The notes beneath the pieces were generated by a model. The model did not search any database. It saw only the letters and a program-made list of their open reading frames with translations, and was not told the origin of the DNA. A stretch of DNA of 23,793 nucleotides from a virus: the IMG/VR virus record IMGVR_UViG_3300025164_000564, positions 1-23,793 of that record; one strand, given 5' to 3'. Both the position numbers and the translations under genes were made by a program. How positions within the stretch are numbered: the first letter of the stretch is position 1; each line of letters opens with the position of its first letter. Shown here piece after piece: positions 1,174-21,772 of the stretch.

Positions 1174-1204
1174 TCATACTATTGAGTTTGTTTCATGGGT
1201 TCTA

Positions 1205-1232
1205 ACTTATGACTTAACCACAAGTCACAAGT
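1205..1232. repeat. inverted repeat, copy 1
   Basis: ACTTATGACTT at 1205-1215 and AAGTCACAAGT at 1222-1232 form 11-base arms with one mismatch around a 6-base spacer. The same palindrome family recurs at 1265-1288. The spacing and symmetry suit a dimeric protein site as well as a hairpin. Confidence 0.7.
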
Positions 1233-1264
1233 ATATGTAATCAAGCTATGTTGTTTTCAATTTT

Positions 1265-1288
1265 TTATGACTTATACACAAGTCATAA
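1265..1288. repeat. inverted repeat, copy 2, with DnaA-box-like centre
   Basis: TTATGACTT at 1265-1273 and AAGTCATAA at 1280-1288 are perfect 9-base arms around ATACAC. The centre reads TTATACACA (1272-1280), a DnaA-box consensus match. The arms match those of the repeat 60 bases upstream. Confidence 0.75.
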
Positions 1289-1753
1289 GTACCAGATTTA
1301 TACATTATCAGACGTAGTTTAGTCATACCTTCTAATTATCAATAGGATTGACTCTGACACAATTGGACAGGGTTATGTCCTTTAGTATGTCATAATCAAT
1401 CCTACAATCTCATAATCAATCCTACACACTGTCCATTAGTCCAGATTCTTACACACTATAGCATACATTCCACAGAGTATAGCATATATTCCATGCAGTA
1501 ACTTTCATGCAGATAATTTCATAATCCAATAGTCATGACTCTAATAGATGATTGAGACTAAGACTAATACACACCATTGATGCTACTGGTCGGAATATTA
1601 TGGGGATAGGGCAGGCATCATCTCATAGGTTTTAAACCATATTTTGAAATATTATACATAATTATAATAATTACTAGTATAAGTATATAACTTAATATTC
1701 ATAGGTACTTATTTAATTGTCAATGAGCAATGGGTTTGTTTTACAGGACAAAT

Positions 1754-1789
1754 ATTTAGAAATCGTTATATAGAAATCTAAATTTTTTT
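1754..1789 (+). terminator. possible weak plus-strand terminator
   Basis: ATTTAGA (1754-1760) pairs with TCTAAAT (1777-1783), and a run of T follows to 1789. The stem is short and all AT apart from one G-C pair, so the call is weak. Its place, between the plus-strand sigma region and the converging minus-strand operon end at 1788, suits a terminator. Confidence 0.25.
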
Positions 1790-1967
1790 AAAACTGATTT
1801 TTGGATATTTCTTTATTTGGCATATTATGTAATATTGCTTCTGAATAATCTTTTGTTGCCCAAATAGTTTCAACTATTAAATTAATCATATTTAATGAGA
1901 AGTCAAAATTATCCATTAGTGCATTACTTATTACTTCTTTATTTAGTGTTTTAAATTTTTCATTCAT
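1788..1967 (-). CDS. small hypothetical protein (59 aa)
   Basis: The product is unrecognised (MNEKFKTLNKEVISNALMDN...). It is amphipathic and probably helical, without Cys pairs or a clear membrane segment. The ATG lies three bases downstream of the previous gene's TAA on the minus strand. There is no strong ribosome site, so translation is probably coupled to that gene. It is the last gene of the minus-strand block. Confidence 0.5.
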   Translation of the reverse strand: MNEKFKTLNKEVISNALMDNFDFSLNMINLIVETIWATKDYSEAILHNMPNKEISKNQF

Positions 1968-1970
1968 AAT

Positions 1971-2108
1971 TTAGTTTATACTGATATGTAAAATTAACCA
2001 AAAGATAATATCTAATAATTTCCATATACCTAATGGAACAATAATTATTAATGTTATTACAAGCATTGTTATTAGATTACTAAAATCTTTACCAAAATTA
2101 TCTAACAT
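1971..2108 (-). CDS. small membrane protein (45 aa)
   Basis: This is a 45-residue ORF behind an AGAGGA ribosome site. Residues 13-44 are almost all hydrophobic (LITMLVITLIIIVPLGIW, then LLDIIFWLILHIS), which suggests one long or two short membrane helices after a short soluble N-terminus (MLDNFGKDFSN). The function is unknown. Phage peptides of this kind include holin-like and superinfection-exclusion proteins, but nothing here decides between them. Confidence 0.6.
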   Translation of the reverse strand: MLDNFGKDFSNLITMLVITLIIIVPLGIWKLLDIIFWLILHISIN

Positions 2109-2126
2109 TTATGAATCCTCTTATTT

Positions 2127-2303
2127 TTAATATGGAAATACGCTGCCATCACAATAATCAGTATTGTTAATTGCCGTTCTCCAAAAATCACTGTCTAACT
2201 CCATGAATGAATTAATTGCTTCTTGTTCAATAAAATGTGCTAAGATAAGTGCAGGATTATTTGATTCTGCTTTTATATTAGTTCTTGGGTCATATATTAA
2301 CAT
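2127..2303 (-). CDS. small hypothetical protein (58 aa)
   Basis: This is an open frame of 58 codons (MLIYDPRTNIKAESNNPALI...) with balanced charge and a soluble look. I recognise no family. The ribosome site is poor (no purine run close to the ATG), which lowers confidence in this start. It sits in line with the other minus-strand genes, 19 bases before the next start. Confidence 0.5.
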   Translation of the reverse strand: MLIYDPRTNIKAESNNPALILAHFIEQEAINSFMELDSDFWRTAINNTDYCDGSVFPY

Positions 2304-2370
2304 AAGTGTTTGTTTTATAAGTATTTATGTTTAAATTAATATATAATAATTTGAAATTTTTTTAAAACTA

Positions 2371-2643
2371 TTATTTTAGAAATAAATATTTTCTATAAAG
2401 TTTTAATATTTCTATGAATACTTTATAGAATACTTTTAATATAGCAGTAATTGATAAAATAGTATGTGTAAATAATCTTATACAGAATCTTATAACTTTT
2501 ATGGTCATACTTGGTTTTTTATTTAAAATATCTAATATTCCAGGTTTGCCTAAATCTTCAAATGTAACAAATCTTTTTTCTGATTTATCTGATAATTTAT
2601 TATATACTCTAATTAAATCTTCATATTTTATTTTTGTTTTCAT
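2371..2643 (-). CDS. hypothetical protein with C-terminal membrane helix (90 aa)
   Basis: The first 45 residues are soluble and charged (MKTKIKYEDLIRVYNKLSDK...). Residues about 47-80 are hydrophobic with basic flanks (VIRFCIRLFTHTILSITAIL), suggesting a membrane or membrane-associated helix. The ATG overlaps the TGA of the upstream minus-strand ORF (ATGA), typical of coupled genes. The function is unknown. The plus-strand ORF over the same bases has no ribosome site and is treated as a shadow. Confidence 0.6.
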   Translation of the reverse strand: MKTKIKYEDLIRVYNKLSDKSEKRFVTFEDLGKPGILDILNKKPSMTIKVIRFCIRLFTHTILSITAILKVFYKVFIEILKLYRKYLFLK

Positions 2644-2828
2644 ATTAATTTATTTTTCTCATAAGTTAAAGAGGATTCAGCTCCTTCTACTACATTCTTA
2701 ATACTTTTTAAAAGTTCTAAAGAAATAGTTAGAGTTTCTATGCCATTTGCATATTCTAGCAAATTTCTAACAGATTCAGTTAGTTTTATGATTTTTTCTA
2801 ACTATGTCTCATCGCCTGGTTTTAACAT
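2640..2828 (-). pseudogene. small coiled-coil ORF interrupted by an in-frame TAG
   Basis: An AAAGGAAAG site precedes an ATG, then eight codons (MLKPGDET), then TAG at 2802-2804. The same frame then stays open for 53 more codons (LEKIIKLTESVRNLLEYANG...). It ends in a TGA that overlaps the next gene's ATG. The continuation has heptad-like hydrophobic spacing and looks like a real protein. One base change would give a 62-residue gene. It is either a gene recently broken by an amber mutation, a frame read by TAG suppression, or a sequence error. There is no in-frame ATG after the TAG. Confidence 0.45.
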
Positions 2829-2840
2829 ATCTACTTTCCT

Positions 2841-2912
2841 TTATATAATATATCCTATAAATAAACATAAAATAAAACAACTTAATATAAGTAATGCCCA
2901 AATATAATTCAT
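2841..2912 (-). CDS. tiny membrane peptide (23 aa)
   Basis: Twenty-three codons (MNYIWALLILSCFILCLFIG plus YII) form a single hydrophobic helix. There is no convincing ribosome site, so this is tentative. It lies between tRNA-Gln and the amber-interrupted ORF, in the direction of the surrounding operon. Confidence 0.3.
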   Translation of the reverse strand: MNYIWALLILSCFILCLFIGYII

Positions 2913-2936
2913 TATGTAATTAATTGTTGTAAGTAA

Positions 2937-3007
2937 TTACCAGGGAAGGATTTGAACCTTCACAAAGGAATCCAAAGTTCCTTATGCTACCGTTACATTA
3001 CCTGGTA
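2937..3007 (-). tRNA. tRNA-Gln (anticodon UUG)
   Basis: The minus strand folds into a complete cloverleaf. The acceptor is TACCAGG/CCTGGTA with U1-A72, as in tRNA-Gln. The D stem is ATGT/GCAT with a GG in the loop. The anticodon stem is AGGAA/TTCCT with loop CTTTGGA (anticodon TTG), and the T stem is GAAGG/CCTTC with loop TTCAAAT. The discriminator is A and no CCA is encoded. It decodes CAA, a common codon in an AT-rich phage. Confidence 0.93.
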
Positions 3008-3016
3008 TAAATATGG

Positions 3017-3089
3017 CTGTGCTGGCAAGATTCGAACTTGCATATTATGAATTAACAGTTCATCCCATGACTAATTATGGTACAGCACA
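3017..3089 (-). tRNA. tRNA-Asn (anticodon GUU)
   Basis: The minus strand gives acceptor TGTGCTG/CAGCACA, D stem CCAT/ATGG, anticodon stem ATGAA/TTCAT with loop CTGTTAA (anticodon GTT), and T stem GCAAG/CTTGC with loop TTCGAAT. The discriminator is G, as usual for tRNA-Asn, and CCA is not encoded. It starts directly after the stop codon of the zinc-ribbon gene and lies nine bases before tRNA-Gln, so the two tRNAs and the proteins probably share one transcript. Confidence 0.93.
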
Positions 3090-3260
3090 TTATTCTAAAT
3101 AAAACCATCCCTGCTCCTCACCTGTTTCTGAATTGGATATTTCATCATAGCATAAAGTATAGCAATGGTGACAATCGGCACATTTAATTTCGTTCCCCAA
3201 AGAATCCCAACAATCATCTATTTCAATGTCGTAACCACAATTATTACAATTTAGTAACAC
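3090..3260 (-). CDS. small zinc-ribbon-like protein (56 aa)
   Basis: The GTG start is chosen because AAAGGAG lies at the right distance and no in-frame ATG precedes the cysteines. The 56-residue product has CNNC at 5-8 and CADCHHC at 27-33, with further Cys at 17 and 37, a pattern expected for a small zinc-binding ribbon. The C-terminus is acidic (SNSETGEEQ). It abuts tRNA-Asn with no gap. The partner and role are unknown; phage zinc ribbons often bind RNA polymerase or nucleic acid. Confidence 0.65.
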   Translation of the reverse strand: MLLNCNNCGYDIEIDDCWDSLGNEIKCADCHHCYTLCYDEISNSETGEEQGWFYLE

Positions 3261-3273
3261 TTTCTTTTCTCCT

Positions 3274-3396
3274 TTATTCTAATTTAAATCCATGAATTAT
3301 TGTTTTATCTGTAATAAGTTCCATTCCTAATAATTTATCAAATTCAAAAATTTTAGAAGTAAGGTCTTTACTATAGAATTTTACTTTTAACCCCAT
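3274..3396 (-). CDS. small hypothetical protein (40 aa)
   Basis: This is a 40-codon ORF (MGLKVKFYSKDLTSKIFEFD...) behind an AAGGA site. Its stop lies just ahead of the ribosome site of the zinc-ribbon gene, so the two are probably translated in series. The pattern of alternating beta-like segments gives no family. Confidence 0.55.
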   Translation of the reverse strand: MGLKVKFYSKDLTSKIFEFDKLLGMELITDKTIIHGFKLE

Positions 3397-3489
3397 ATAA
3401 TCCTTCTTAGAAATTGTAATTTTGTTAGGGAATTTATTATAATAGTTTCTAAAAGCAAGCCTTTAATTACAAATCCTGCACAGAAATAA

Positions 3490-3810
3490 TTAGACGTTAC
3501 TTGATATAATATCATTATATTTTTTCTGTACTTCTAGTAATAATTTAATTAATATGTCTATAGGGATAGCAATAATTATTGTTAGGCAATCTAATAAAAA
3601 AAGTGGAAAATTCTTTTTCTTTGTTTCATATAACTCTTTTAAGCTATAAGTTTTATTTAAATAGTTATATCTGATATTGTTTCTGATTTTAATTTTTTCT
3701 GGTTTGTTATGTATAATAACAATTATCTCATGTTTATCTCTCTTGCTATGTTCTATTTTAGCAAGTGCCTCAGCTATAGTTTTACAATTATAAGGAACAA
3801 TTATTTCCAT
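3490..3810 (-). CDS. hypothetical protein with hydrophobic C-terminal segment (106 aa)
   Basis: This is the first gene after the minus-strand promoter. Residues 1-65 are soluble and basic (MEIIVPYNCKTIAEALAKIE, then EIIVIIHNKPEKIKI). Residues about 69-92 (FPLFLLDCLTIIIAIPIDIL) look like a membrane helix. GGGGA precedes the ATG. No family is recognised. About 90 bases between it and the next gene hold nothing clear. Confidence 0.6.
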   Translation of the reverse strand: MEIIVPYNCKTIAEALAKIEHSKRDKHEIIVIIHNKPEKIKIRNNIRYNYLNKTYSLKELYETKKKNFPLFLLDCLTIIIAIPIDILIKLLLEVQKKYNDIISSNV

Positions 3811-3857
3811 GTTTAATCCCCAATTGTATTATTGTGATTAATCTAAATTAATATTGT

Positions 3858-3885
3858 ATTATATCTTGAAAGTTGAATTTGTCAA
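3858..3885 (-). promoter_or_regulatory. consensus sigma-70 promoter for the minus-strand operon
   Basis: On the minus strand TTGACA (3880-3885) is followed after 16 bases by TATAAT (3858-3863); both hexamers are perfect. It reads toward the gene starting at 3810 and the tRNA block. With the plus promoter 75 bases away it forms a divergent control region at 3811-4035. A perfect host-type promoter suggests early expression. Confidence 0.8.
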
Positions 3886-3960
3886 GCCAAAATCTTTAAT
3901 TTTTTTATTTTTAAATTATAGTTATTATTTTAATATAAGTTCTTAAATTATAAAAAGTTC

Positions 3961-3989
3961 TTGACATTTTGCATTTAAAGTGTTTAAAT
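3961..3989 (+). promoter_or_regulatory. sigma-70-like promoter for the dUTPase operon, repeated-block copy 1
   Basis: TTGACA at 3961-3966, a 17-base spacer, and TTAAAT at 3984-3989 form a good promoter facing the small ORF at 4036 and the dUTPase. The 19 bases at 3952-3970 (AAAAAGTTCTTGACATTTT) occur again exactly at 15495-15513, where they also form a promoter, so this is a repeated phage promoter type. Confidence 0.7.
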
Positions 3990-4035
3990 AGAAAAAAATT
4001 ATGTAAATATTTATATTAAAAGGAATAAGAATGTA

Positions 4036-4170
4036 ATGTGTAGAGCATGTGAAGAATTTACAGTTAGAAATTTAGAAGAAATTGATAAAGAGAGATTGGT
4101 TGCAAAAAGAACTAAAGCAGATTTAAAAAAATTAGTAAAAGGAAAAAAGATAAAAGTCAAACGTAAATAA
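4036..4170 (+). CDS. small basic protein (44 aa)
   Basis: This is a 44-residue ORF starting about 45 bases after the promoter, with AAAAGGA upstream. CRAC at the N-terminus (2-5) could be half of a metal site. The C-terminal half is Lys rich (KADLKKLVKGKKIKVKRK), suggesting nucleic-acid binding. The function is unknown. It is followed closely by the dUTPase ribosome site. Confidence 0.55.
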   Translation: MCRACEEFTVRNLEEIDKERLVAKRTKADLKKLVKGKKIKVKRK

Positions 4171-4184
4171 TAAAGGAGATTTAT

Positions 4185-4628
4185 TTGTATTTAAGAGTTT
4201 ATTATAAGGATAATGTAAAATCACTTAATTACCAAACAGATGGTGCAAGTGGGTTGGATTTAGCGTCTTATGATGATTGTATTGTTCCTTCTGGTAAAAT
4301 GGCTATGATTCCAACTGGTATTTATTGTATAATTCCAAATAACTATGAAGGTCAAATACGAATGCACAGTGGCTTAGCTTGTAAAGGAATTATGCTGGCA
4401 AATGGAGTTGGAACGATAGATGCTGATTTTCGTGGCGAATTGAAAGTATTATTGTATAATAACACTAATGAAAATTATAGAATATACAAAGGTGATAGAA
4501 TAGCTCAATTAGTTATTGCCCCAATAGTTAAGCCAGAGATAGTTGTATTTAAGGATTTTAATGAATTTCAAGAAGAAAGTATAACTTCCAGAGGTACAAA
4601 TGGCTTTGGGCATACAGGAGTACAATGA
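4185..4628 (+). CDS. dut: dUTPase (dUTP diphosphatase)
   Basis: The enzyme hydrolyses dUTP to dUMP and pyrophosphate, keeping uracil out of phage DNA and supplying dUMP. All five motifs of the trimeric family are present in 147 residues. Motif 1 is ASGLDLAS (21-28), motif 2 MHSGLA (60-65), motif 3 NGVGTIDADFRGE (73-85), motif 4 GDRIAQLVI (103-111) and motif 5 RGTNGFGHTG (136-145), so it looks active. Motif 3 has Phe where the family usually has Tyr (DADFRGE). The start is TTG, set by AAAGGAG nine bases upstream. The TGA stop overlaps the ATG of the next gene (ATGA), so the two are coupled. Confidence 0.93.
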   Translation: MYLRVYYKDNVKSLNYQTDGASGLDLASYDDCIVPSGKMAMIPTGIYCIIPNNYEGQIRMHSGLACKGIMLANGVGTIDADFRGELKVLLYNNTNENYRIYKGDRIAQLVIAPIVKPEIVVFKDFNEFQEESITSRGTNGFGHTGVQ

Positions 4629-5866
4629 CAGATAATCTAATAATTTCTGTTGAGCCAATGGAATTTGGATGGATAGATTATCGCCGACTAAAACCATTAC
4701 AAGGCAAACTTAAAAAGTTGCCAGATGAACTTTATGAAAAATTAAAGAAGTCATTTGAAAAGAAAGGGATGTTTGTTCCTTTTTTTGTTTGGAGAAAAAA
4801 TGATGATGAGTATTATATTTTAGATGGGCATGGAAGGGAATTATTACTTGAAAAAGAAAAAGTACAAATTAAATCAGGTAATGGGGGTATTTGGGATATA
4901 CCCTGTATTTTCATAGAGGCTAAAAATGAGAAAGATGCTAAAGAAAAGTTGCTTATTATTAATAGTAAGTATCAGGAGTTTGATGATTTTACCGATTTTA
5001 TTAATGATATTGATAAAGATATTCTTGAAGATGTTATTAATATTCCTGACATTAATATTGATATTGATGCTATTTCTGATTGCAGTAGTAATTCAGATGA
5101 GCAAGAGGATGATGAAGAAATAGAAGATAATAATGGTATGATAGGAAATATTTATGAACTAAATGATGCAATTTTATTTGAGCGTGGTTTAAATAATTAT
5201 GACATACCATGTTTAAAGAAAGAAATGTTAACAAGTGTTCCAGAGCCAATACAAGTTTATTGTGGAGATGGAAAAACAATTGATGAAACTTGGAAAGGAT
5301 TTTGGTTATTTCTCAAAGGATGTTACCATGAAAAAGTAAATTGTACACAAGGTATTTTAGGTTTTTATGCTTGGGATGATAAATTTGAAGCAGTGTGGGA
5401 TAAAACTATTGAATATGTATATAAAATAAAAGAAAAAGATTATATGGCTGTTATTACTCCTAATTTTACTATTATACCTGGTGAGCCTATGGCATGGCAA
5501 ATATGGCAAGTATATAGAGCTAGGTGGATAGGAAGATATTTACAAGAAGCTGGAATCTATGTTATACCAGATGTGACTTGGACAGATGAAAGATCATTTG
5601 ATTTTGCTTTTCTTGGCATACCAAAGGGCACTCCTTGCATTTCTATTCAAACTCAAAACATAGATATAGATAGTGCAATAGGAAGAGAACTACATGAAAA
5701 AGGCGTAAAAGAAATGGTCAAACAAATAGAGCCTGAACGAATTATGATTTATATATCACCCTCAAACAAAGCATATATTTTATCAACAATTCCGCAAGGA
5801 ATTAAAACAATTTGTGTGGACAGTTGGATCAGTCAACGGAGAGAAAAGGGGATGTATGATAAATAA
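4625..5866 (+). CDS. ParB-like N-terminal domain fused to DUF4417 domain
   Basis: The 413-residue protein has two parts. Residues about 15-120 resemble the ParB/sulfiredoxin nuclease fold, with ILDGHGREL (65-73) matching the family motif (I/V)DGHxR and a preceding VPFFVWRKND strand. An acidic linker (about 130-170, DEQEDDEEIEDNN) follows. Residues about 200-400 match DUF4417, a phage and mobile-element domain, with IPDVTWTDERSFDFAFLGIP and ISIQTQ as recognisable segments. ParB-like domains of this type accompany phage methyltransferases and packaging genes. DUF4417 has no settled function that I know of. AGGAG precedes the ATG, which overlaps the dUTPase stop. Domain assignment is from motif recall and not from a search. 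Confidence 0.7.
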   Translation: MTDNLIISVEPMEFGWIDYRRLKPLQGKLKKLPDELYEKLKKSFEKKGMFVPFFVWRKNDDEYYILDGHGRELLLEKEKVQIKSGNGGIWDIPCIFIEAKNEKDAKEKLLIINSKYQEFDDFTDFINDIDKDILEDVINIPDINIDIDAISDCSSNSDEQEDDEEIEDNNGMIGNIYELNDAILFERGLNNYDIPCLKKEMLTSVPEPIQVYCGDGKTIDETWKGFWLFLKGCYHEKVNCTQGILGFYAWDDKFEAVWDKTIEYVYKIKEKDYMAVITPNFTIIPGEPMAWQIWQVYRARWIGRYLQEAGIYVIPDVTWTDERSFDFAFLGIPKGTPCISIQTQNIDIDSAIGRELHEKGVKEMVKQIEPERIMIYISPSNKAYILSTIPQGIKTICVDSWISQRREKGMYDK

Positions 5867-6720: not shown

Positions 6721-7353
6721 ATGTTTACTAAAAAATTATATCCAGAGATACTACTAAATATTGTATCAGTTCATGGGGTGTATTCCAAAGGTGGTGATTT
6801 AGCCACTCTTTGTGAACAAGTTTCAGGGGATGTAGGGTTATCTGCTGATAGAGTAAAAGTATCAACAATTGATTATGGCGTATTACTTTTAATTTTAGAG
6901 CGCATGCCTTTTGTAAGAAATCTTATTGCCATGATTGTAGCAAATAGATTAGCTGCCTGTAGTTATAAATATCCTAATGCGAAAACTGTAGTTGTAGCAC
7001 ATTCTTTTGGAACATGGGCAACTTGTGAAGCATTGCGAAAATGGGGTGAAGAGTTTCGTATGAATGCTTTAGTGCTTTTTGGTAGTGTTGTAAGTAGAAA
7101 TTTTGATTTTAGTAAATTTCCTGATGTTGAAGTACATAATATTATAGGAAAAAAAGATATAGTTGTTTTGAGTGGGGCTTTATGGGGGACGGGATGGTCG
7201 GGCATATTTGGGTTTAAAAAAGACTATAAACATATTAATGATAATCTTATCGAAATTAAAATTTCAAAGGGTCATTCAGGATATAAAGAAAGCTATTCTC
7301 ATTTATACAATATTATTAGAAATTTTATTGCTAGGACTATATTATGTCACTAA
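6721..7353 (+). CDS. alpha/beta-hydrolase-fold protein
   Basis: This is a 210-residue predicted serine hydrolase. It shows the oxyanion HG early (VHG, 18-20), the nucleophile elbow VVVAHSFGTWA with Ser95, a probable acid at Asp146 (IGKKDIVVL), and His185 (KGHSGY) near the end. That order and spacing are normal for the fold. There is no signal peptide. The substrate is unknown. Esterase or lipase activity in host lysis, or modification of a small molecule or cell component, are possibilities. It lies just before the packaging genes and overlaps the TerS start by 10 bases, so it is co-transcribed with them. Confidence 0.75.
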   Translation: MFTKKLYPEILLNIVSVHGVYSKGGDLATLCEQVSGDVGLSADRVKVSTIDYGVLLLILERMPFVRNLIAMIVANRLAACSYKYPNAKTVVVAHSFGTWATCEALRKWGEEFRMNALVLFGSVVSRNFDFSKFPDVEVHNIIGKKDIVVLSGALWGTGWSGIFGFKKDYKHINDNLIEIKISKGHSGYKESYSHLYNIIRNFIARTILCH

Positions 7354-7973
7354 CTACTGTTATCAAAGAAGAACAAAATGTTTATTCATTAGAATTAAAT
7401 AATATGCGGAAAAATGACGTAATGAATACATTACGAGAAAATATACCTGCTGTGGAAGATGCTATTCAGAAATCTGGTGGATGGTTGACCAAAGCAGCAT
7501 CTTTATTAGGATGTTCTTCTCTTGCTTTGGCTAAATTTGTTGCACAAAGTCCAGAATTATTAGAAATATATCAAGATATAAAAGAGAAATATCTTGATAT
7601 TGCAGAAATAAAGTTATTAACATTAGTTAAAAAGGGAGAATTAGAAGCAATAAAATATTGGTTAAATAATCAAGGTAAAAAAAGAGGATGGGGTGTTAAA
7701 GAAGAAGATTCTGGCAATAAAGGAAATACTATTATATTTAATATAGAGCCTGCTTTTACTATCAATGATGTAAAAAATCAAGCTGATGAGCGCATTAAAG
7801 AAATAGAGGCTAAAGAATACATTGATGTAAAAATTAAGGATGTTACATTACAAGAACAGAAAAAGGAAGAGGAAATAAAGGAAACTGTTCCTATAGATGA
7901 TAGAAATGGTATAACTAAAGATTTTATAGATGCTACAAATGAAGAGAACTGGGATAACACTTCTAACTTATAA
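7344..7973 (+). CDS. terS: terminase small subunit
   Basis: The small subunit recognises phage DNA and brings it to TerL for packaging. The 209-residue product has a DNA-binding helix-turn-helix at about 45-70 (GGWLTKAASLLGCSSLALAK) and a helical oligomerisation region (about 70-110, LLEIYQDIKEKYLDIAEIKL). The signature-like KYWLNNQGKKRGWG follows at 104-117, typical of many TerS proteins. An acidic C-terminal tail probably contacts TerL. Its position just ahead of TerL, with only the degenerate intein gene between, supports the call. The ATG at 7344 overlaps the hydrolase gene; an internal ATG at 7404 is the alternative. Confidence 0.8.
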   Translation: MSLTTVIKEEQNVYSLELNNMRKNDVMNTLRENIPAVEDAIQKSGGWLTKAASLLGCSSLALAKFVAQSPELLEIYQDIKEKYLDIAEIKLLTLVKKGELEAIKYWLNNQGKKRGWGVKEEDSGNKGNTIIFNIEPAFTINDVKNQADERIKEIEAKEYIDVKIKDVTLQEQKKEEEIKETVPIDDRNGITKDFIDATNEENWDNTSNL

Positions 7974-8938
7974 TGGAATTAACTGGATTTCATAAAGATA
8001 GTGATATATTTACTTTTGATGGGTGGAAAAATATAGCAGAAATAAAATCAGGAGATAAATTAGCCACATTAAATCCTTATACAAGAATAGCTGAATTTTT
8101 ACCCTGCAAAGATGTAAAAGAATTAGATTATTCAGGTAATATGATAGGTGGTGGTGTTAAAAAGGATGCAAAGGCTGGATTTTTTATTACACCAGAAAGT
8201 AAAGCATTAGTTTACTTGGAGAGTGATCCTTCTCCTGGTTTTTTAAAAGCTAAATATCTCCTTAACCAGAAATCTATTTTCTACATTGCACATATAAATA
8301 AATTTAAAGGAATAAATAAGCTAAAATATAAAGTCAAAGATGTGTCTGTGGAAGGACATGATGCTGCTTATTTACTTGGGATTATTTTTGCTAAAGGTAT
8401 TATAACAAGAAATTTTATTTATTTTCCATTATATCAAGAAGAAGAAACATCTCTTAAAATAAAAGAGCTATTAACTAAATTAGGAATAAAATTTTTAGCA
8501 AAAAAGAATGAAAATCTAAGTGTAGAAATTTATTCCCAGTCTTTTTGTGATTATATTGAAACTAATTTAGGAAAAAATAGATATGAAAGATTTATTAGTG
8601 ATAAAATTAAAAATTTAAGTAGTGAGTTGTTAAAAAGTTTTGTGCAAGGAATTTTTTTATGCACAAAACGCAATGCTGTTGCTGCTTATAAAAATAATAA
8701 TAATAAATGTATAAATGATCTTTATTATATATTAAACAAGGTTGGGTATAGATATATATTTTCATTTGTTGGTTATATGGGGTTGATTAGATGTTTTGCA
8801 AATAATGATTATTCTTATAATGTTGAAGAAATCAGATATAAGGATAAAATTTATTCTATAATCATAGAACCATATCATACATTATTAATTAGGCTTGGTA
8901 AACTTTGTGGGTTTTGGTGTGGGGATAGTAAACAATAA
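7973..8938 (+). CDS. free-standing degenerate intein / Hint-LAGLIDADG protein
   Basis: The 321-residue protein has the layout of a full intein. Residues 5-85 form an N-terminal splicing domain (FHKDSDIFTFDGWKNIAEI), 128-260 form a LAGLIDADG-type core, and 293-319 form a C-terminal block (YSIIIEPYHTLLIRLGKL). Every key residue is changed. Gly5 replaces Cys1, TPES (73-76) replaces TPxH, and LLGIIFAKG has Lys141 in place of the metal-binding acid. SFVQGIFL has Ile227 in place of the second Asp, and GD (317-318) replaces the terminal HN. A Ser still follows, as the +1 residue would. It should therefore neither splice nor cut DNA, yet the frame is intact over 321 codons. Its ATG overlaps the TerS stop (TAATG), and TerL follows after nine bases. 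It could be a relic or a recruited DNA-binding protein. Confidence 0.75.
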   Translation: MELTGFHKDSDIFTFDGWKNIAEIKSGDKLATLNPYTRIAEFLPCKDVKELDYSGNMIGGGVKKDAKAGFFITPESKALVYLESDPSPGFLKAKYLLNQKSIFYIAHINKFKGINKLKYKVKDVSVEGHDAAYLLGIIFAKGIITRNFIYFPLYQEEETSLKIKELLTKLGIKFLAKKNENLSVEIYSQSFCDYIETNLGKNRYERFISDKIKNLSSELLKSFVQGIFLCTKRNAVAAYKNNNNKCINDLYYILNKVGYRYIFSFVGYMGLIRCFANNDYSYNVEEIRYKDKIYSIIIEPYHTLLIRLGKLCGFWCGDSKQ

Positions 8939-8947
8939 TAAAATTAC

Positions 8948-11900
8948 ATGAATATTAAAGCTACAAAATTGTTCTATCTCAATAGGGAGTCTAAGGCTCA
9001 GATAGTTATAAATAGAGGGGGCTCAAGATCCTCGAAAACTTTTTCTATTGGGCAATTATTATTTTTAGAAAGATTTTTCACACAAAGAAATAAAAAAATA
9101 TTAGTTCTTAGAAAAACACTTCCATCTCTTAGAATATCTGTATATCAAGACTGGAAGAAGTTTATGGATCAATATGATTTATATAACATTGTTGAAGAGA
9201 ATAAACAAAATTTAGATTATTATTATAAACCAAATAATAATTATTTACATTTTGGTTCATTGGACTCCCCTGAAAAAATAAAATCTTCTGGATGGAATTA
9301 TATCTGGATGAATGAGGCCACTGATTTTGATAAAGATGATTTAATGCAGTTATTGCTACGACTTTCTGAGCCAATTGAAGAAGAATTGCGTAATCAATTG
9401 TTTATGTGTTTTAATCCTATAGATGAGTATCATTGGATTAAGACTGATATTTTAGATAAGAGAGAAAATTTTGATTTAGAAGAAATACATAGTACATATA
9501 AAGATAATCAATTTTTATCTAAAGATTATGTAAGGTTAGTAGAATCTTACCAGCACATTGATTTTAATAAATATAAAGTTTACGGTTTAGGTGAATGGGG
9601 TAAGTTAGAGAATTTAATATATAATAACTGGGACACAACTTCAGAATATATTACTACTGGTGAGACTATTTATGGATTAGATTTTGGTTTTACTAATCCC
9701 TCTGCTTTATTAAAAATGGTTATTAATGGTGATGATATATTTGAAGAAGAGCTTATATACAAAACTGAACTAACCAATGCTCAATTAATTGAAAAATGCA
9801 ATGAATTAAATGTATCTAAAACATTTCCTATTTATTGTTTTCATCCAAGTACATTAATTAGAATGCACGATGAGACAGAAAAAGCTATCAATAATGTAAA
9901 AATAGGAGATATTTTACATAATAATAAAACTGTTTTAAATGTGATGCGAAGAGAATATAATGGGGATTTATTAAAAATAAAAACTCAAAGTAATTTTGAA
10001 GCTTTAAAATGTACACCAGATCATAGAATTCCAATTATACCAGGAAAAACAGGCAGACAGGATAAACGAAGTGATAAAAAATTAATGGAATCCTTGAAAC
10101 TTGTTACTGCATCGGAAATAAAAGTTGGAGATTACTTATTAATTCCTATGGATGGTATAATAAAAGATATTAAATTAAAATTTGATGGTATAGGAAAAAA
10201 CAATAAGAGAAAAAAAATTGATTTTAAATTTACTTCATCAATTTTTCGTTTATTAGGGTATTATACTGCCGAAGGTAGCACTGGTAAGTGGGATACTAAG
10301 TTTTATTTTTCTTTAGATGAAACAGAAACTTGGGTTAAAGATGTAGTTGAAATTGTAAAAGAATGCTTTGATATTGATTGTTCTGTTTATTTAGATATGT
10401 GTCCTAGTGTTGCTGTTGTAGCTATTTTTTCTGTTGTATTATCTGAATTTTTTAAATATTACGTTAATGGGATAGCTAAGACTAAGGTTTTGCATAATGA
10501 TTTAATGACAATGTCTCCTGAGTATCAACGTGAATTGCTTATAGGATGGTTAAGGGGTGATGGTGGGTTAAGTATAAAACCAAGAAATTATAGTTTATGT
10601 GGTACTACTACAAGTTATAATTTATTTCGGCAAATGTATTTAATAGCTCTTAGATGTGGATTAAAGCCATCAACACAAAAAAGAATAAGCAAAGGTGGTA
10701 AAACTAGGGCTGGTACAGTAACTACTTGTTATGATGTTATTTTTTCATTAAAAGATATAAAATCATTAGGATTTTTTCAAATAAACACTAAACCATTATG
10801 TGTAAAAAGAATAATTAATGGAAATATGTTAGTTAGAGTCAAAAAAATAGATTTGGAAAAATATAATGGGGAAGTTATAGATTTAGATGTAGATGGGGAT
10901 AATTTGTTTGTTGCTGAAAATTTATTGGTACATAATTGTGACTCTGCTGAGCCAGACAGAATACAGGAATTTAGGGAAGCTGGATACAATGTTATAGAAT
11001 CTGTTAAAGATGTTATAAATTCCATAGATTTTGTGAAAAGATTCAAAATACATTGTTATAAAGCAAGTGCTAATTTAATTAAAGAAAAAATGGGATATAG
11101 TAGAAGAAAAGATAAAAATGGTAGAATATATGAAGAGCCAGCACCAAATATAGCTGACCATTGTTATGACAAAGAGACACAAATATTAACTAATTCTGGA
11201 TGGAAGTATTTTTATGATTTAACAGAATCTGATGAGGTAATGACATTAGATAAAAATAAAATTTTATATGAAAAACCTATAAAAATAATAAAACAAAAAT
11301 ATACAGGTAGTATGATTAGGTATGATAGTAAAAATTTAAATTTTTCTATCACTCCTGATCAATTATTATGGGTATCTAATCAATATTCTACTACGATTAA
11401 AAAACAACCTGTTTTTGATTTTTGTTCATTAAACAATCTTCCCCAAAAAAGTTTTATAAAACGTAATTGTTTTGAGTGGGTTGGGAAAGATATACCAGAA
11501 TTTAAATTTACTAAATATGCTAATAAATACAAAGGGGAATATGCAATCCCATCTATTATTTTTGGAAAGTTTTTAGGATTATGGTTAGCAGAAGGCTGTG
11601 TAAATAAAAATCATTATTCAGTAATAATTGATGGAAATGGTGATGATATTTTAAATATAATACAAAGTTTACAAGTGCCTTATAGTAAAATTATCACTAA
11701 ATGTAATGTAAACAGATATTATATTATGTCTAAGGATCTTTATAGTTATTTTATAAAATTAGGAAAATCTGATACAAAATTTATTCCAATTGAATATAAA
11801 AATGGAACAAAAGAAATTTTACAAGCTTTATGGGAGGGTTATTGGACTGGTGATGGAGCTAAAAAATCTTTAAATAAAGAAGTATCTAGTGTATCTTTCC

Positions 11901-12268
11901 AATTAGTTTCTGATTTTCAGGAAGTTTTATTTAAACTTGGCATAAGCTCTAATGTTTACAAAATACTTGATGCAAGAAGTGTAAAAATCATAAGAAAAAT
12001 TTATAACTGCCTCCCAGTATATAGACTTTCTTTATCTTATGAAACTAAAGGTGTTAATGGTCTAGGTTGTGTTGAGCTTGTTAAAAGTAAGTTATTTGCG
12101 GAAGAATATAATGATTTTGTGTATGACGTTAGAGTTACTTCTGGTATTATAGTGGTACGCAGAAATGGAAGAATAATGTGGACATCAAATTGTATGAATG
12201 CAGAGCAATATGCTCTATATACTCATCTTAGGCACAGATTTGGAGATTTGAGGTTAAGGTTTATTTAA
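8948..12268 (+). CDS. terL: terminase large subunit containing two inteins
   Basis: TerL is the packaging motor and nuclease. The 1106-residue precursor is interrupted by inteins at 297-663 and 739-1081; splicing would leave 396 residues, normal for the family. The ATPase has Walker A GGSRSSKT (24-31), Walker B IWMNEAT (119-125) and the CFNP coupling motif (154-157). The nuclease has Asp245 (GLDFGFTNP), Asp665 (CDSAEP) and a final motif HCMNAEQYALY, in which the usual Asp is Asn. Both inteins sit immediately next to nuclease motifs. The extein sequence is continuous and matches TerL on both sides of each intein, which fixes the splice points. No strong ribosome site precedes the ATG. The stop overlaps the next ATG. 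Confidence 0.92.
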   Translation: MNIKATKLFYLNRESKAQIVINRGGSRSSKTFSIGQLLFLERFFTQRNKKILVLRKTLPSLRISVYQDWKKFMDQYDLYNIVEENKQNLDYYYKPNNNYLHFGSLDSPEKIKSSGWNYIWMNEATDFDKDDLMQLLLRLSEPIEEELRNQLFMCFNPIDEYHWIKTDILDKRENFDLEEIHSTYKDNQFLSKDYVRLVESYQHIDFNKYKVYGLGEWGKLENLIYNNWDTTSEYITTGETIYGLDFGFTNPSALLKMVINGDDIFEEELIYKTELTNAQLIEKCNELNVSKTFPIYCFHPSTLIRMHDETEKAINNVKIGDILHNNKTVLNVMRREYNGDLLKIKTQSNFEALKCTPDHRIPIIPGKTGRQDKRSDKKLMESLKLVTASEIKVGDYLLIPMDGIIKDIKLKFDGIGKNNKRKKIDFKFTSSIFRLLGYYTAEGSTGKWDTKFYFSLDETETWVKDVVEIVKECFDIDCSVYLDMCPSVAVVAIFSVVLSEFFKYYVNGIAKTKVLHNDLMTMSPEYQRELLIGWLRGDGGLSIKPRNYSLCGTTTSYNLFRQMYLIALRCGLKPSTQKRISKGGKTRAGTVTTCYDVIFSLKDIKSLGFFQINTKPLCVKRIINGNMLVRVKKIDLEKYNGEVIDLDVDGDNLFVAENLLVHNCDSAEPDRIQEFREAGYNVIESVKDVINSIDFVKRFKIHCYKASANLIKEKMGYSRRKDKNGRIYEEPAPNIADHCYDKETQILTNSGWKYFYDLTESDEVMTLDKNKILYEKPIKIIKQKYTGSMIRYDSKNLNFSITPDQLLWVSNQYSTTIKKQPVFDFCSLNNLPQKSFIKRNCFEWVGKDIPEFKFTKYANKYKGEYAIPSIIFGKFLGLWLAEGCVNKNHYSVIIDGNGDDILNIIQSLQVPYSKIITKCNVNRYYIMSKDLYSYFIKLGKSDTKFIPIEYKNGTKEILQALWEGYWTGDGAKKSLNKEVSSVSFQLVSDFQEVLFKLGISSNVYKILDARSVKIIRKIYNCLPVYRLSLSYETKGVNGLGCVELVKSKLFAEEYNDFVYDVRVTSGIIVVRRNGRIMWTSNCMNAEQYALYTHLRHRFGDLRLRFI
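9836..10936 (+). mobile_element. TerL intein 1 with LAGLIDADG endonuclease
   Basis: This intein spans residues 297-663 of TerL (367 aa). It starts at Cys297 (CFHPSTLIRM), has block B CTPDH with His359, and ends in HN (662-663) followed by Cys664. All splicing residues are thus present. The endonuclease motifs LGYYTAEGS (Glu442) and GWLRGDGG (Asp538) keep their acids, so homing activity is plausible. It splits the extein as PIY | CDSAEP, right before a nuclease aspartate. Confidence 0.9.
11162..12190 (+). mobile_element. TerL intein 2 with LAGLIDADG endonuclease
   Basis: This intein spans residues 739-1081 of TerL (343 aa). It starts at Cys739 (CYDKETQILTNSGWKYF) and ends in VVRRNGRIMWTSN, followed by Cys1082. 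Endonuclease motifs LGLWLAEGC (Glu882) and GYWTGDGA (Asp969) keep their acids. Two splicing residues are atypical: block B is TPDQ with Gln805 instead of His, and the penultimate residue is Ser1080 instead of His. It separates NIADH from CMNAEQYALY at the last nuclease motif. Confidence 0.88.
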
Positions 12269-13038
12269 TGCAATATCCTGAAAATTTTATAAATAAAGTT
12301 ATACTTGGTGATTGTTTAGATATAATGCCAGGTATTCCAGATAAATCTATTGATATGGTGTTATGTGATTTGCCTTATGGAACTACTGCTTGCAAATGGG
12401 ATGTTATTATTCCTTTTAAAGCTTTATGGGAGCAATATGAAAGAATTATTAAAGATAATAAAGCAATTGTTTTGTTTGGAAATCAACCTTTTATTACAGA
12501 TTTAATAAATTCAAACAGAAAATTATTTAAATATTCAATGGTTTGGGATAAAGTAAAAACATCGCAACCACATCTTAGCAAAATAAAACCAATGCAAAGA
12601 CATGAAGATATTTTAATATTTGGAAACAAAAGGCTTATTTATAATCCAATAATGATTAAAAAGGGTGTTCCAAGAAAAGCTGGAGGGAAAAGAACTTGCA
12701 AGAACAATGAACATAAATTAGGATTAAAATCAACAAGTTGTTACCTGCTTACTCATAGCTATCCAAGCACTATTATTGTTGCAAGCAATGCAAACAATAA
12801 ATTTAGAGTTCATTCAACTCAAAAACCAGTGGCTTTATTTGAATATTTGATTAAAACGTACACAAATGAAAATGATATAGTATTAGATAATTGTGCGGGC
12901 TCAGGAACTACTGGAATAGCATGTATTAATACTAATAGAAATTATATTTTAATCGAAAAAAACGAAAAATATTTTGATACTTGTGTAAATATAATTAACA
13001 AACATAAAGAAATATTAAATTCACAATTTTTTAAATAA
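12268..13038 (+). CDS. DNA methyltransferase A (N4-cytosine/N6-adenine type)
   Basis: The enzyme would transfer a methyl group from S-adenosylmethionine to an exocyclic amino group of DNA. In 256 residues the catalytic motif IV DLPYGTT (34-40) comes before the AdoMet-binding motif I DNCAGSGTT (207-215), an order typical of the beta class. HSTQKP (182-187) is also a usual block in this family. The first Pro of the DPPY form is Leu, which is tolerated in many phage enzymes. There is no restriction partner nearby, so it is probably an orphan that protects phage DNA or alters regulation. Its ATG overlaps the TerL stop (TAATG). Confidence 0.88.
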   Translation: MQYPENFINKVILGDCLDIMPGIPDKSIDMVLCDLPYGTTACKWDVIIPFKALWEQYERIIKDNKAIVLFGNQPFITDLINSNRKLFKYSMVWDKVKTSQPHLSKIKPMQRHEDILIFGNKRLIYNPIMIKKGVPRKAGGKRTCKNNEHKLGLKSTSCYLLTHSYPSTIIVASNANNKFRVHSTQKPVALFEYLIKTYTNENDIVLDNCAGSGTTGIACINTNRNYILIEKNEKYFDTCVNIINKHKEILNSQFFK

Positions 13039-13076
13039 ACTCTTGGTAAAAGGAGAATACAGGAGTATTAAAAATT

Positions 13077-14432
13077 ATGGCATTATTAAAAGAAAAAAGA
13101 TTATCTAGTTTAGTATTAAAAGCAAAGAATAAACTCTCAAAAGATAATGATGATATTCCTAAGAAATATACAGGAGCAGTAGTATCTGCTTGGGAAGATG
13201 GGAGAGAATTATATCGTAGAGATGATTTAACAAGTCTTGTAAATGCTTTTAAGGACTGGGTTTTTATATGTGCATCCCGTAATGCTTCCTGTGTAGCCAA
13301 AGGAACATTTAAATTATTTGTAGCTACTAAAAAAGGACAAAGATTGATTGCCCCTACAAGAGATATTGATAAAATTACTTTAAAATGGTTAGAAAGTAAT
13401 GGTGGATTACATTCTTATCTACAAAAAGCTGTTTCTGTAAAAGAAGTTATAAATCACCCATTTATAGATTTAATTAAATCCCCAAATCCTTTTATGGATA
13501 GATATACCTTATTAGAGACGACAGCTTTATTTTTAGAATTAACTGGAAATGCTTATTGGTATATTTTTAAAGATAAATTAGGAGTTCCCAGACAAATATG
13601 GGTTATTCCATCACAAAATATGTTAATTGTCCCTTCTAAAGAAAAGTTCATAGCTGGTTACATATTTAAAAGAGGAACAGAAACAGTTCCTTTTGATTTA
13701 AATGAGATAGTGCATTTTAAATTTCCTAATCCACATAATTTATATTATGGTATGGCTCCTCATGCTTCAATTGTTAATGAACTTAATACTAAAGAAAATA
13801 TGGATAAATTTGAGAATGCTTTATACACTAATAATTGTAGAATGGAAGGTGTATTAGAGACAGATATGGAATTAAGTCAAACTACTTTTGATAGAATGAA
13901 AGAACAATGGAAACAGAATTATGGTGGAGTTAACAAAGCAGGTAAAACTGCTATATTAGAAAAGGGATTAAAATATCATAGTATAACATTTCCGCCTAAA
14001 GACTTAAATAATTTACAAGGCAGAAAAAATTATAGGGAAATAGTAGCTGCTGTATTTGGTGTTCCTATGTCAATGCTGACTACAGAAAATACGAACCTCG
14101 CCAATGCCTATGTAGGGGATAGGCAATATTATTCTAATACTATATTACCAAGAGATAAGAGATTAGAGGGGGGTATAAATACTAAATTATTATCATTATA
14201 TGATGATTCTATATTTTTAGCATTTGATAATCCTGTGCCTGATGATAATGAATTTTTATTGAGAAAGAATGTAGCTGAAGTTAAAGCAGGCATTAGAACA
14301 CGTAATGAAGTTCGTTTGGACGCAGGACTTGAGCCTAGACCAGAAGGAGACAAATTAGAGATTGGTAATACAGGTTTTGCTAAACAAGGTGCACCTATTG
14401 GAAATCAAAATGCTGAGGAAACGCCTGAGTAA
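13077..14432 (+). CDS. portal protein (HK97 type)
   Basis: The portal forms the dodecameric ring at one capsid vertex through which DNA enters and leaves. The 451-residue length fits the family. Recognisable parts are the N-terminal VFICASRNASCVAKGTFKLF, the central YGMAPHASIVNELNTKENMD, and the later KNYREIVAAVFGVPMSML stretch. NEVRLDAGLEPRPEGDKLEI, common at portal C-termini, closes it. It follows TerL with one methyltransferase gene between. Two AGGAG-like sites lie upstream of the ATG. Confidence 0.92.
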   Translation: MALLKEKRLSSLVLKAKNKLSKDNDDIPKKYTGAVVSAWEDGRELYRRDDLTSLVNAFKDWVFICASRNASCVAKGTFKLFVATKKGQRLIAPTRDIDKITLKWLESNGGLHSYLQKAVSVKEVINHPFIDLIKSPNPFMDRYTLLETTALFLELTGNAYWYIFKDKLGVPRQIWVIPSQNMLIVPSKEKFIAGYIFKRGTETVPFDLNEIVHFKFPNPHNLYYGMAPHASIVNELNTKENMDKFENALYTNNCRMEGVLETDMELSQTTFDRMKEQWKQNYGGVNKAGKTAILEKGLKYHSITFPPKDLNNLQGRKNYREIVAAVFGVPMSMLTTENTNLANAYVGDRQYYSNTILPRDKRLEGGINTKLLSLYDDSIFLAFDNPVPDDNEFLLRKNVAEVKAGIRTRNEVRLDAGLEPRPEGDKLEIGNTGFAKQGAPIGNQNAEETPE

Positions 14433-14444
14433 TTTTTAAAATTT

Positions 14445-15251
14445 ATGGAATATAATTATTTAATAAACAAAATATTTAATGAAAATTGTTTGGTAACAAT
14501 GAGTAAAATGCCAAATGATTTTATTAATTTGGTAGTTACTTCTCCATCCTATGACCAACTTCGTAAATACTCTGGTGATAATAAGTTAGATTGGGAGGAG
14601 CATGTGTGGAAACCCATTATTCAAGAATTATTTAGAGTTATCAGATTAGGTGGTATTGTAGTATGGGTAGTTGGTGATTCAGTTATTAATGGAAGTGAGT
14701 CAGGAACATCATTTAAACAAGCATTGTATTTTAAAGATGTTGGGTTTAATTTATATGATACAATGATATACCAAAAAGAGAATCCAGTACCTTTAACTCA
14801 TAATAGATATGAACAAGCTTTTGAATATATGTTTGTTTTTAGTAAGGGCAAACCAAAAACATTTAATCCAATATTAGAGGATTGTAAAACAAAAGGTTAT
14901 TATAAAACTGTAAGAAGTGCTGGGCGTGTAAAAGAAAATTCTTTTCGTAGTAGAGAAGAGATAGTTAAAACAAAAGATACCAAAGTACAAAGAAATATTT
15001 GGACTTATATTGTTGGAGGCAAAACAGATAATGGACGACACCCAGCAAGCTTTCCAGAAAAATTAGTAATAGATTATATAATATCTTGAAGTAATGTTGC
15101 TGATTTAGTTTATGATTCCTTCATGGGTAGTGGGACTGTGGCAAAATGTTGTAAATTACTAAATAGGAACTATATAGGATCAGAAATTAGTGAAGATTAC
15201 TGTAAAATAATAGAAGAGAGACTTAATTCCTTACATTCATTATTTTTTTAA
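14445..15251 (+). CDS. DNA methyltransferase B interrupted by in-frame TGA
   Basis: The first open stretch (14445-15089, 214 codons) carries the N-terminal part and motif IV TSPSYD (32-37), plus HPASFPEKLVIDYIIS. It ends in TGA at codon 215. The same frame then continues 53 codons with SNVADLVYDSFMGSGTVAK, which contains the AdoMet-binding motif I, and ends RNYIGSEISEDYCKIIEERL before TAA at 15251. Family members usually have Trp at this point (ISWSN), so TGG to TGA explains it. Without readthrough the enzyme lacks its cofactor site and should be dead. Possibilities are a recent nonsense mutation, leaky TGA reading, or a base error. There is no good ribosome site before the ATG. Confidence 0.8.
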
Positions 15252-15259
15252 TTTTTATA

Positions 15260-15388
15260 ATGGTTAAAACTAAACGCAAAAAATTAATAGATGAGAAAGA
15301 AAGAAAAGTAGAAGAAAATATTATAACTACTTATATGTCAGTAGTTGATAATTTTATAAAAAATAGAAAAAAGAAAATAACTTTATAA
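15260..15388 (+). CDS. small basic hypothetical protein (42 aa)
   Basis: This is a 42-codon ORF (MVKTKRKKLIDEKERKVEEN...) with charged, helical character and Lys-rich ends. There is no good ribosome site, only an AT-rich run before the ATG. The composition is of the sort that arises by chance in AT-rich DNA, so support is limited. It lies between methyltransferase B and tRNA-Thr. Confidence 0.35.
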   Translation: MVKTKRKKLIDEKERKVEENIITTYMSVVDNFIKNRKKKITL

Positions 15389-15396
15389 TAAATTAT

Positions 15397-15468
15397 GCTG
15401 GTGTATTTCAGTGGCAGAGAAGCAGTCCTGTAAACTGCATGTTGTAGGTTTAAGTCCTACCACCAGCT
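15397..15468 (+). tRNA. tRNA-Thr (anticodon UGU) with unusual loop bases
   Basis: The cloverleaf has acceptor GCTGGTG/CACCAGC (G1-C72 and C2-G71 suit Thr identity), D stem TTTC/GAGA with loop AGTGGCA, anticodon stem GCAGT/ACTGC with loop CCTGTAA (anticodon TGT), variable loop ATGTT, and T stem GTAGG/CCTAC with loop TTTAAGT. All stems pair. Two nearly invariant bases are changed: position 33 is C instead of U, and position 56 is U instead of C. The discriminator is U. It would read ACA if functional. Confidence 0.75.
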
Positions 15469-15503
15469 TTATATTATTTTAAAAATATTTTTAAAAAAAG
15501 TTC

Positions 15504-15532
15504 TTGACATTTTACATAACTTGTGGTAGAGT
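15504..15532 (+). promoter_or_regulatory. sigma-70-like promoter, repeated-block copy 2
   Basis: TTGACA (15504-15509), a 17-base spacer, and TAGAGT (15527-15532) face the gene at 15554. The 19 bases at 15495-15513 are identical to those at 3952-3970, and the match resumes with CAT after one difference. It would start a new transcript for the small genes after tRNA-Thr. Confidence 0.65.
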
Positions 15533-15553
15533 CTTATATTAAGGAGAAATATA

Positions 15554-15781
15554 ATGGCAGAATGTACAAATATAACAGATAGTAATACTAATTTTTATAT
15601 ACAACCTTTAGAGCCAAGTTTTTGGACTTACCCAACTAATAGTTATAATTATGTAATTGGGGAGGACAAGATAAAAAAAGCTATTTCAATTATACAATTT
15701 TTACGCAAAAATAAGAAAATAAAGATAGATTCCATAGATAATTTCATAGAACTAATAAAAGAAATTTCAGAAATATTATAA
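15554..15781 (+). CDS. small hypothetical protein (75 aa)
   Basis: This ORF has AAGGAG before its ATG and a promoter just upstream, so it is probably expressed. The 75 residues read MAECTNITDSNTNFYIQPLE..., then YVIGEDKIKKAISIIQFLRK, with a helical C-terminal half. I recognise no family. Its TAA directly precedes the ATG of the next small ORF. Confidence 0.6.
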   Translation: MAECTNITDSNTNFYIQPLEPSFWTYPTNSYNYVIGEDKIKKAISIIQFLRKNKKIKIDSIDNFIELIKEISEIL

Positions 15782-15949
15782 ATGACAGAAAATAGAGAAC
15801 AGTATAAGGAAGTGTTAAAATCTAAAAAAAAAGAATTATCTGAGTTTTTATTACAGAAAAAGATTACAATTAAAGAGTTTACAGGAAGAATCACTTTACA
15901 TGTAAATCAAGGTAGTATTTGTTCTATAGAGCAAACTATTTGTTATTAA
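15782..15949 (+). CDS. small hypothetical protein (55 aa)
   Basis: The ATG directly follows the previous stop (TAAATG), which suggests coupling. The product is a charged 55-residue protein (MTENREQYKEVLKSKKKELS..., then HVNQGSICSIEQTICY) with two Cys near the end. No family is evident. A strong terminator lies 50 bases downstream, so the promoter at 15504, these two genes and the terminator form a short transcription unit. Confidence 0.5.
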   Translation: MTENREQYKEVLKSKKKELSEFLLQKKITIKEFTGRITLHVNQGSICSIEQTICY

Positions 15950-16002
15950 ATATTTAGTAAATCATCTGGCAGTTTAAATACTTAGAAATAATAAGTAAAT
16001 TT

Positions 16003-16047
16003 AAGCCCAAATATATTGAGTTAAATCAATGTATCTGGGCTTTTTTT
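16003..16047 (+). terminator. strong intrinsic terminator
   Basis: AAGCCCAAATATATTGA (16003-16019) pairs with TCAATGTATCTGGGCTT (16026-16042) around GTTAAA, giving a 17-base stem with one mismatch and one wobble pair. Seven T follow (16041-16047). It closes the short transcription unit of the two small genes upstream. Confidence 0.9.
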
Positions 16048-16070
16048 ATTGGTATAAAAATTTGAAACTT

Positions 16071-16090
16071 AAGGTCAATTTTGTGACCTT
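16071..16090. repeat. short palindrome, possible operator or minor terminator
   Basis: AAGGTCA (16071-16077) and TGACCTT (16084-16090) are perfect arms around ATTTTG. GTTTTATTTT follows. It lies between the terminator and the beta-helix gene. It may be a regulator site for that gene or a second weak terminator. Confidence 0.4.
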
Positions 16091-16145
16091 GTTTTATTTT
16101 GATTAAAACTTCGTACTAATTTTGGTACAGAAAGGTTGGTGTTGT

Positions 16146-17087: not shown

Positions 17088-17104
17088 ACTTATGATAATA
17101 TTCT

Positions 17105-17149
17105 ATACTAAGCTGTATATTAAAAATGTACAGCTTAGTATGATTTTTT
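17105..17149 (+). terminator. strong intrinsic terminator
   Basis: ATACTAAGCTGTA (17105-17117) and TACAGCTTAGTAT (17129-17141) are perfect 13-base arms around an 11-base loop. TTTTTT follows at 17144-17149. It ends the beta-helix gene transcript, and the homing endonuclease gene starts 17 bases later. Confidence 0.9.
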
Positions 17150-17165
17150 AAATTAAACAGTAATT

Positions 17166-18062: not shown

Positions 18063-18082
18063 ATAAATAATAGGAGCATTAT

Positions 18083-18382: not shown

Positions 18383-18472
18383 ATTAGTTCAATATCAGGA
18401 AATAACCCAATATATGGATAATATAATTACAATAATTTTACGATGCAATAAAACAAATATAGGAGTCAATTA

Positions 18473-20491: not shown

Positions 20492-20505
20492 TTTTTAGGC
20501 CAGAG

Positions 20506-20520: not shown

Positions 20521-20571
20521 TAGGTCATAGAATATATAGATTATTTATTAACAATTACGGAGGAAATTTAA

Positions 20572-21756: not shown

Positions 21757-21772
21757 ATTTTTACTTATTAAT

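Follow-up and report, generated by a model that had tools for sequence, protein, structure and literature searches.

The window analysed here, an environmental virus contig of 23,793 bases, raises the question of how a free-standing, intein-derived frame that has lost the residues for both splicing and DNA cutting could have kept its reading frame open in the middle of a terminase gene cluster. A preliminary description of this DNA had placed a frame of 321 codons on the plus strand at 7973-8938, between a TerS-like gene and terL, and this frame (hereafter the ORF) was confirmed to be uninterrupted. The features needed for the discussion are the following:

7344..7973, plus strand, TerS-like gene, 209 aa, with a layout resembling that of the TerS gene upstream of terL in locus L003
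7971..7975, plus strand, TAATG, the terS stop overlapping the ORF start, without an upstream Shine-Dalgarno sequence
7973..8938, plus strand, the ORF, 321 aa, free-standing and intein-derived, a Hint domain split by a two-motif LAGLIDADG domain, with splicing and nuclease residues lost
7985..8926, plus strand, intein-equivalent segment of the ORF, from Gly5 (the Cys1 position) to Asp318 (the last intein residue), delimited by sequence alignment and by structural alignment of residues 5..318 to intein residues 1 to the end
8948..12268, plus strand, terL, Terminase_3 / PBSX family, with two inteins, starting 9 nt past the ORF stop, without a Shine-Dalgarno sequence
9281..9286, plus strand, empty intein site in terL, KIK|SSGW, with the insertion point between 9283 and 9284
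9836..10936, plus strand, TerL intein 1, 367 aa, Cys1 ... HN|C, residues intact
11162..12190, plus strand, TerL intein 2, 343 aa, Cys1 ... SN|C, only distantly related to the ORF (32 bits)

The ORF thus sits inside a tightly packed terS-ORF-terL unit, in which the TerS-like gene itself has no Pfam match. It is not an in-frame insertion in a host protein, as it has its own start and stop, and the only residues outside the intein-equivalent segment are MELT before and SKQ after it. No fragment of a terminase gene was seen adjoining it.

In regard to its origin, the sequence comparisons clearly point to descent from a phage intein. The best five matches among the collected inteins all reside in TerL (L007 with 96 bits, L005 with 85, L009 with 84, L010 with 80 and L012 with 79). 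The first of them (5e-26) is an end-to-end alignment with a true intein, and the second, at 25% identity (3e-23 to 4e-22), runs from ORF residue 6 to the last block. No Pfam family matches the ORF, so the intein assignment rests on intein relatives and not on a profile library; NCBIfam and PHROG gave only sub-threshold matches, and these were to intein-bearing genes. A PDB sequence search with the family alignment as query likewise returned inteins, while matches to GAF domains, obtained with the ORF protein alone, were set aside as chance only.

The intein of L005 lies just before the Walker B motif of TerL, in the context DPEKIK|C...WCGQ|STDW. This DPEKIK|S site is occupied in L005, L007, L014, L033 and L072, and most other TerL loci examined have it empty, including the TerL of the window, whose own two inteins occupy other sites and are much more distantly related to the ORF. 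Judging by BLAST rank, the ORF likely belongs to the lineage that inserts at this site, and the trees leave its placement open, since a clade with the DPEKIK|S-site inteins is neither supported nor rejected (AU p 0.42). The branch leading to the ORF is long (2.43), and its family-profile score of 110 bits lies below that of every active member (130-341). The intein of L014 (735-1157) is a mini-intein of 141 aa without a nuclease domain, which, together with the full inteins of L005 and L007, represents stages of the homing cycle at one TerL site. In loci L120-L125, a nearly identical intein (Cys1...GN|S) was found in a structural-looking gene whose host-protein sequences differ.

The full intein layout proposed beforehand, a Hint domain with a LAGLIDADG core, was upheld by the end-to-end intein alignment and by an AlphaFold2 model (pLDDT 84.8, pTM 0.84) built with 13 relatives in the alignment. 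Since the model obtained without an alignment is poor (pLDDT 37), this fold rests on homology together with the model. The model matches full-length inteins with a homing endonuclease (VMA-type) with a Z of 22.9 over residues 5-318, or 3-318 for the TliVMA intein, and mini-inteins are matched with a Z of 14-17; Foldseek gave 5.8e-17 against intein-homing-endonuclease structures. Residues 125-279 form a LAGLIDADG fold with two motif helices and match I-Tsp061I and I-DmoI with a Z of 13.6-13.7. There is also a weak match to the WhiA structure 3hyi (E 4e-4).

The catalytic residues are where the ORF departs from its relatives. Three of the losses described earlier were recovered: Gly5 stands at the Cys1 position in both the alignment and the structural alignment, the block B His is replaced by Ser76, and the Glu that ends the first LAGLIDADG motif has become Lys141. 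The second lost acid had been assigned to Ile227, which is not the acid position; the affected element is instead the second-motif GDG near 229-232, which one alignment shows as deleted after L229 and another as replaced by C230-T231-K232. The reported replacement of a terminal HN by GD needs a similar correction, as the family of the ORF ends in Gly-Gln or Gly-Asn before Ser, and not in HN: the penultimate Gly is ancestral, and only the step from Gln/Asn to Asp318 is a change. The Ser said to follow the C block is present (Asp318-Ser319, against GQ or GN and Ser in the family). Further losses, absent from the earlier account, include the conserved Cys of block F (Ser295) and the Lys of block D (Glu157 or Gln155, depending on the alignment), and a further nuclease feature, T241/S243, is changed to Asn. 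Block B still has its Thr73, and block F its His302. A charge swap between Glu141 and Lys157 was considered and, being alignment-dependent, is not claimed.

Taken against the requirements for activity, an active LAGLIDADG nuclease has an acid ending both motifs, and the ORF does not. Splicing calls for Cys, Ser or Thr at position 1, or for class 2/3 chemistry, together with the block B His, and the ORF has Gly5, Ser76 and Ser295 instead. At the C-terminus, where Asn, Gln or Asp should be followed by Cys, Ser or Thr, it still carries a suitable pair, Asp318-Ser319; splicing is possible for inteins with a terminal Gln or Asp (PMC4031507).

The preliminary description had also argued that the locus is not a product of simple decay, and several observations agree with it. 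Among the columns conserved in the family, radical loss affects 6/6 catalytic columns versus 4/~47 structural ones (one-sided Fisher 9e-6 with the larger family and 5e-4 with a smaller one), the columns having been grouped into catalytic and structural after the alignment was inspected. It is only radical loss that separates the two groups, as a test counting any change was not significant (p 0.09). Active members of the family show 0-11 radical structural changes, a range that includes the ORF. Fourteen of its structural changes were examined, and they are milder than expected from mutation at random (P 0.0002); its conservative changes, 18 in all, exceed those of any active member. The net charge, +12, is similar to that of the DNA-cutting relatives. 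Base composition gives a similar impression: GC at codon positions 1/2/3 is 0.349/0.293/0.137 in the ORF, a profile shared by the intact TerL inteins (0.365/0.324/0.139 and 0.338/0.306/0.140) but not by the stretch 1174-4184, mostly non-coding on this strand (0.241/0.281/0.227). The resulting skew of 0.21 compares with 0.15 after simulated drift at 0.2 substitutions per site.

Furthermore, the 321 AT-rich codons contain no stop. When neutral drift was simulated with substitutions only, the share of runs in which the frame stayed free of stops was 49% at 0.01 substitutions per site, 16% at 0.03, 5% at 0.05 and 0.7% at 0.08, and no run stayed free of them at 0.1 or more. Decay in this genome does leave stops, as a nonsense codon is present in its N6/N4 DNA methylase gene (14445-15089, continuing to about 15240), which has an in-frame TGA at 15087-15089 and its GSGT motif past the TGA in the same frame. 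A recoded genetic code, which this TGA brought to mind, was rejected, since TGA ends both the dUTPase gene and the gene at 22649. Decay alone is therefore unlikely to explain the ORF. Because the conserved structural columns are kept and drift above 0.05-0.08 would leave stops, the fold probably outlived catalysis, and the overall pattern, read from sequence, is the picture of a protein that evolved under constraint on its fold and not on its chemistry.

We tentatively propose, with a probability of about 0.4, that the ORF is a free-standing intein derivative of the HO/WHO kind turned non-cleaving protein, as WhiA did, with DNA binding as its presumed activity. According to this proposal, an ancestral intein would have left its host gene and become a free-standing homing nuclease, whose Hint part, comparable to that of yeast HO/WHO, was no longer needed for splicing. 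Cutting would have been lost later, and the fold would have been kept because the folded protein still does something. For a LAGLIDADG protein without its metal-binding acids, the residual activity would most likely be sequence-specific DNA binding, as in WhiA, and the binding target would probably lie at or near the old target in the terminase region. The protein is probably produced by ribosomes moving on from terS across the ORF and into terL. A recruited role, as suggested at the outset, is in this sense plausible, with a DNA-binding regulator or a factor acting on the terminase region as hypotheses for what that role could be.

A distinct, if doubtful, possibility is that the ORF is the relic of a free-standing homing gene without protein function, in which selection acts on nothing but an open frame, through coupled translation of terS, the ORF and terL. 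Ribosomes ending terS would restart at the TAATG, read through the ORF and restart at terL. The close packing of the three genes, with overlapping stop and start on one side and 9 nt on the other, fits such a passage, and so does the absence of Shine-Dalgarno pairing at the ORF and terL (+0.6 and +0.9 kcal/mol), whereas 14/20 window genes checked score -5 kcal/mol or lower and a recognisable site precedes 22/38 related terL genes. As terL has no Shine-Dalgarno site of its own, interrupting the ORF by a stop or a frameshift would have a polar effect on terL under this explanation, which thereby supplies a reason for the absence of stops; the open frame alone could also be explained by coupling to the essential terL, without any protein function. 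However, terL may start uncoupled, as a strong site is missing from 16/38 related terL genes too. Openness, moreover, gives no protection to the amino acids, yet the catalytic columns are lost and the conserved structural ones either unchanged or altered conservatively. The codon-position skew is also undiminished. With modest drift (about 0.1), this explanation would still fit.

A recent inactivation appears unlikely. In that scenario, the splicing residues would have been lost while a free-standing homing endonuclease was still active, and the nuclease itself too recently for stops to appear. The homing cycle usually ends with the loss of the nuclease, no new function is required, and drift of 0.03-0.05 substitutions per site keeps the frame open in 16-5% of the simulated runs. 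Against this, several nuclease features are gone (the first acid, GDG, the block D Lys, and T241/S243 to Asn), and since 0.05 substitutions per site alters only about 11% of the residues, drift is unlikely to have produced all these losses, while the nonsense codon in the methylase gene of the same genome speaks for decay that leaves stops. That the protein is still catalytic through unusual residues, for example in C-terminal cleavage at Asp318-Ser319 or in DNA nicking, is hardly credible, even though C-terminal cleavage is possible for inteins that end in Asp (PMC4031507) and Thr73 and His302 are kept, because Cys1, the block B His, the block F Cys and both nuclease acids are missing and exteins of 4 and 3 residues leave nothing useful to splice.

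Relatives of the ORF were sought with the ORF, TerS, terL, portal and family alignments as queries, and no orthologue was found in viral contigs, genome contigs or phage collections; a plasmid collection gave no match to the ORF. No free-standing copy turned up in about 80 TerL loci, for many of which over 1 kb of upstream sequence was available. All the relatives examined are inteins inside host genes (TerL, portal, MuF, DNA polymerase and others), and the ORF is, in the collections searched, a singleton as a free-standing form. The first base of the sole near-identical contig (L002/L021) lies 7 bases ahead of the ORF stop. This contig matches the window over about 14 kb (window positions 8932-22964) with 33 SNPs, all of them within 9532-9781. 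This 250-bp tract ends 55 bp upstream of TerL intein 1 and looks, from its sequence, like the trace of homing or recombination next to an intein present in both phages.

If the proposed non-cleaving protein is functional, the locus would represent a dead intein recruited within a phage packaging operon. One specific version, which we regard as very improbable, is that the protein acts as a shield, binding the empty terL site, about 350 bp downstream of the ORF, without cutting it and thereby blocking homing by intein-bearing competitors at coinfection. Such a selfish element would have been domesticated against its own kind. With its vacant matching site, the terL next door offers a direct way to see whether dead homing proteins guard against live ones. 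On the other hand, if the ORF is a translation bridge only, coupling to an essential gene would be what keeps a dead mobile gene open, a caution against equating an open frame with function.

Other parts of the window carry features of their own. A GIY-YIG homing-type gene without a Shine-Dalgarno sequence is located at 17166-18062, and a long inverted repeat was seen by eye upstream of it, at about 17100-17140. The gene at 4625-5866, which adjoins a phage dUTPase, fuses DUF4417 to an N-terminal part that resembles, by eye, a ParB-type domain. Genes for tRNA-Gln, tRNA-Asn and tRNA-Thr were found at 2937-3089 on the minus strand and 15397-15468 on the plus strand.

Among known systems, the closest comparison is with the TerL inteins of the DPEKIK|S site near Walker B (L005, L007, L014, L033 and L072), to which TerL1-e of mycobacteriophages can be compared (PMC5050341). 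The ORF shares with them the same Hint and two-motif LAGLIDADG arrangement from end to end and a C-terminal block of the GQ/GN type. However, these inteins sit in frame inside TerL while the ORF stands alone outside terL, and the full-length inteins that could be read to their ends (L005, L007 and L033) keep Cys1, the block B His and GDG, which the ORF does not.

Free-standing intein derivatives and LAGLIDADG proteins left with DNA binding only are each known separately, and no case of both traits combined in one phage protein was found in the literature searched. The yeast HO/WHO proteins are free-standing and intein-derived, without exteins, and WHO genes lie beside the gene that they target (PMC7282813). 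The ORF is likewise a stand-alone Hint and LAGLIDADG gene without exteins, but HO/WHO proteins are active in DNA cutting and have a zinc finger at the C-terminus, whereas the ORF protein ends three residues past the intein end, with only two Cys nearby (CGFWC) and no zinc-finger domain. Tests for the residues or domains that define splicing inteins, active homing endonucleases and the HO/WHO family did not find them, so the ORF belongs to none of these three groups.

WhiA (DUF199) resembles the ORF in being LAGLIDADG-derived and devoid of nuclease activity, in line with the weak structural match to 3hyi. WhiA is a conserved bacterial regulator that has no Hint domain and has an added DNA-binding domain (see PMC3781837), whereas the ORF is a single phage sequence. 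Finally, free-standing homing genes near phage terminase genes are known from collaborative homing, where they encode HNH or T5orf172/GIY-YIG nucleases (PMC10448857). The ORF, a dead intein-type protein, differs from them in kind, but resembles them in its setting, as it adjoins terL and has many mobile nuclease genes around it, represented here by the two TerL inteins.
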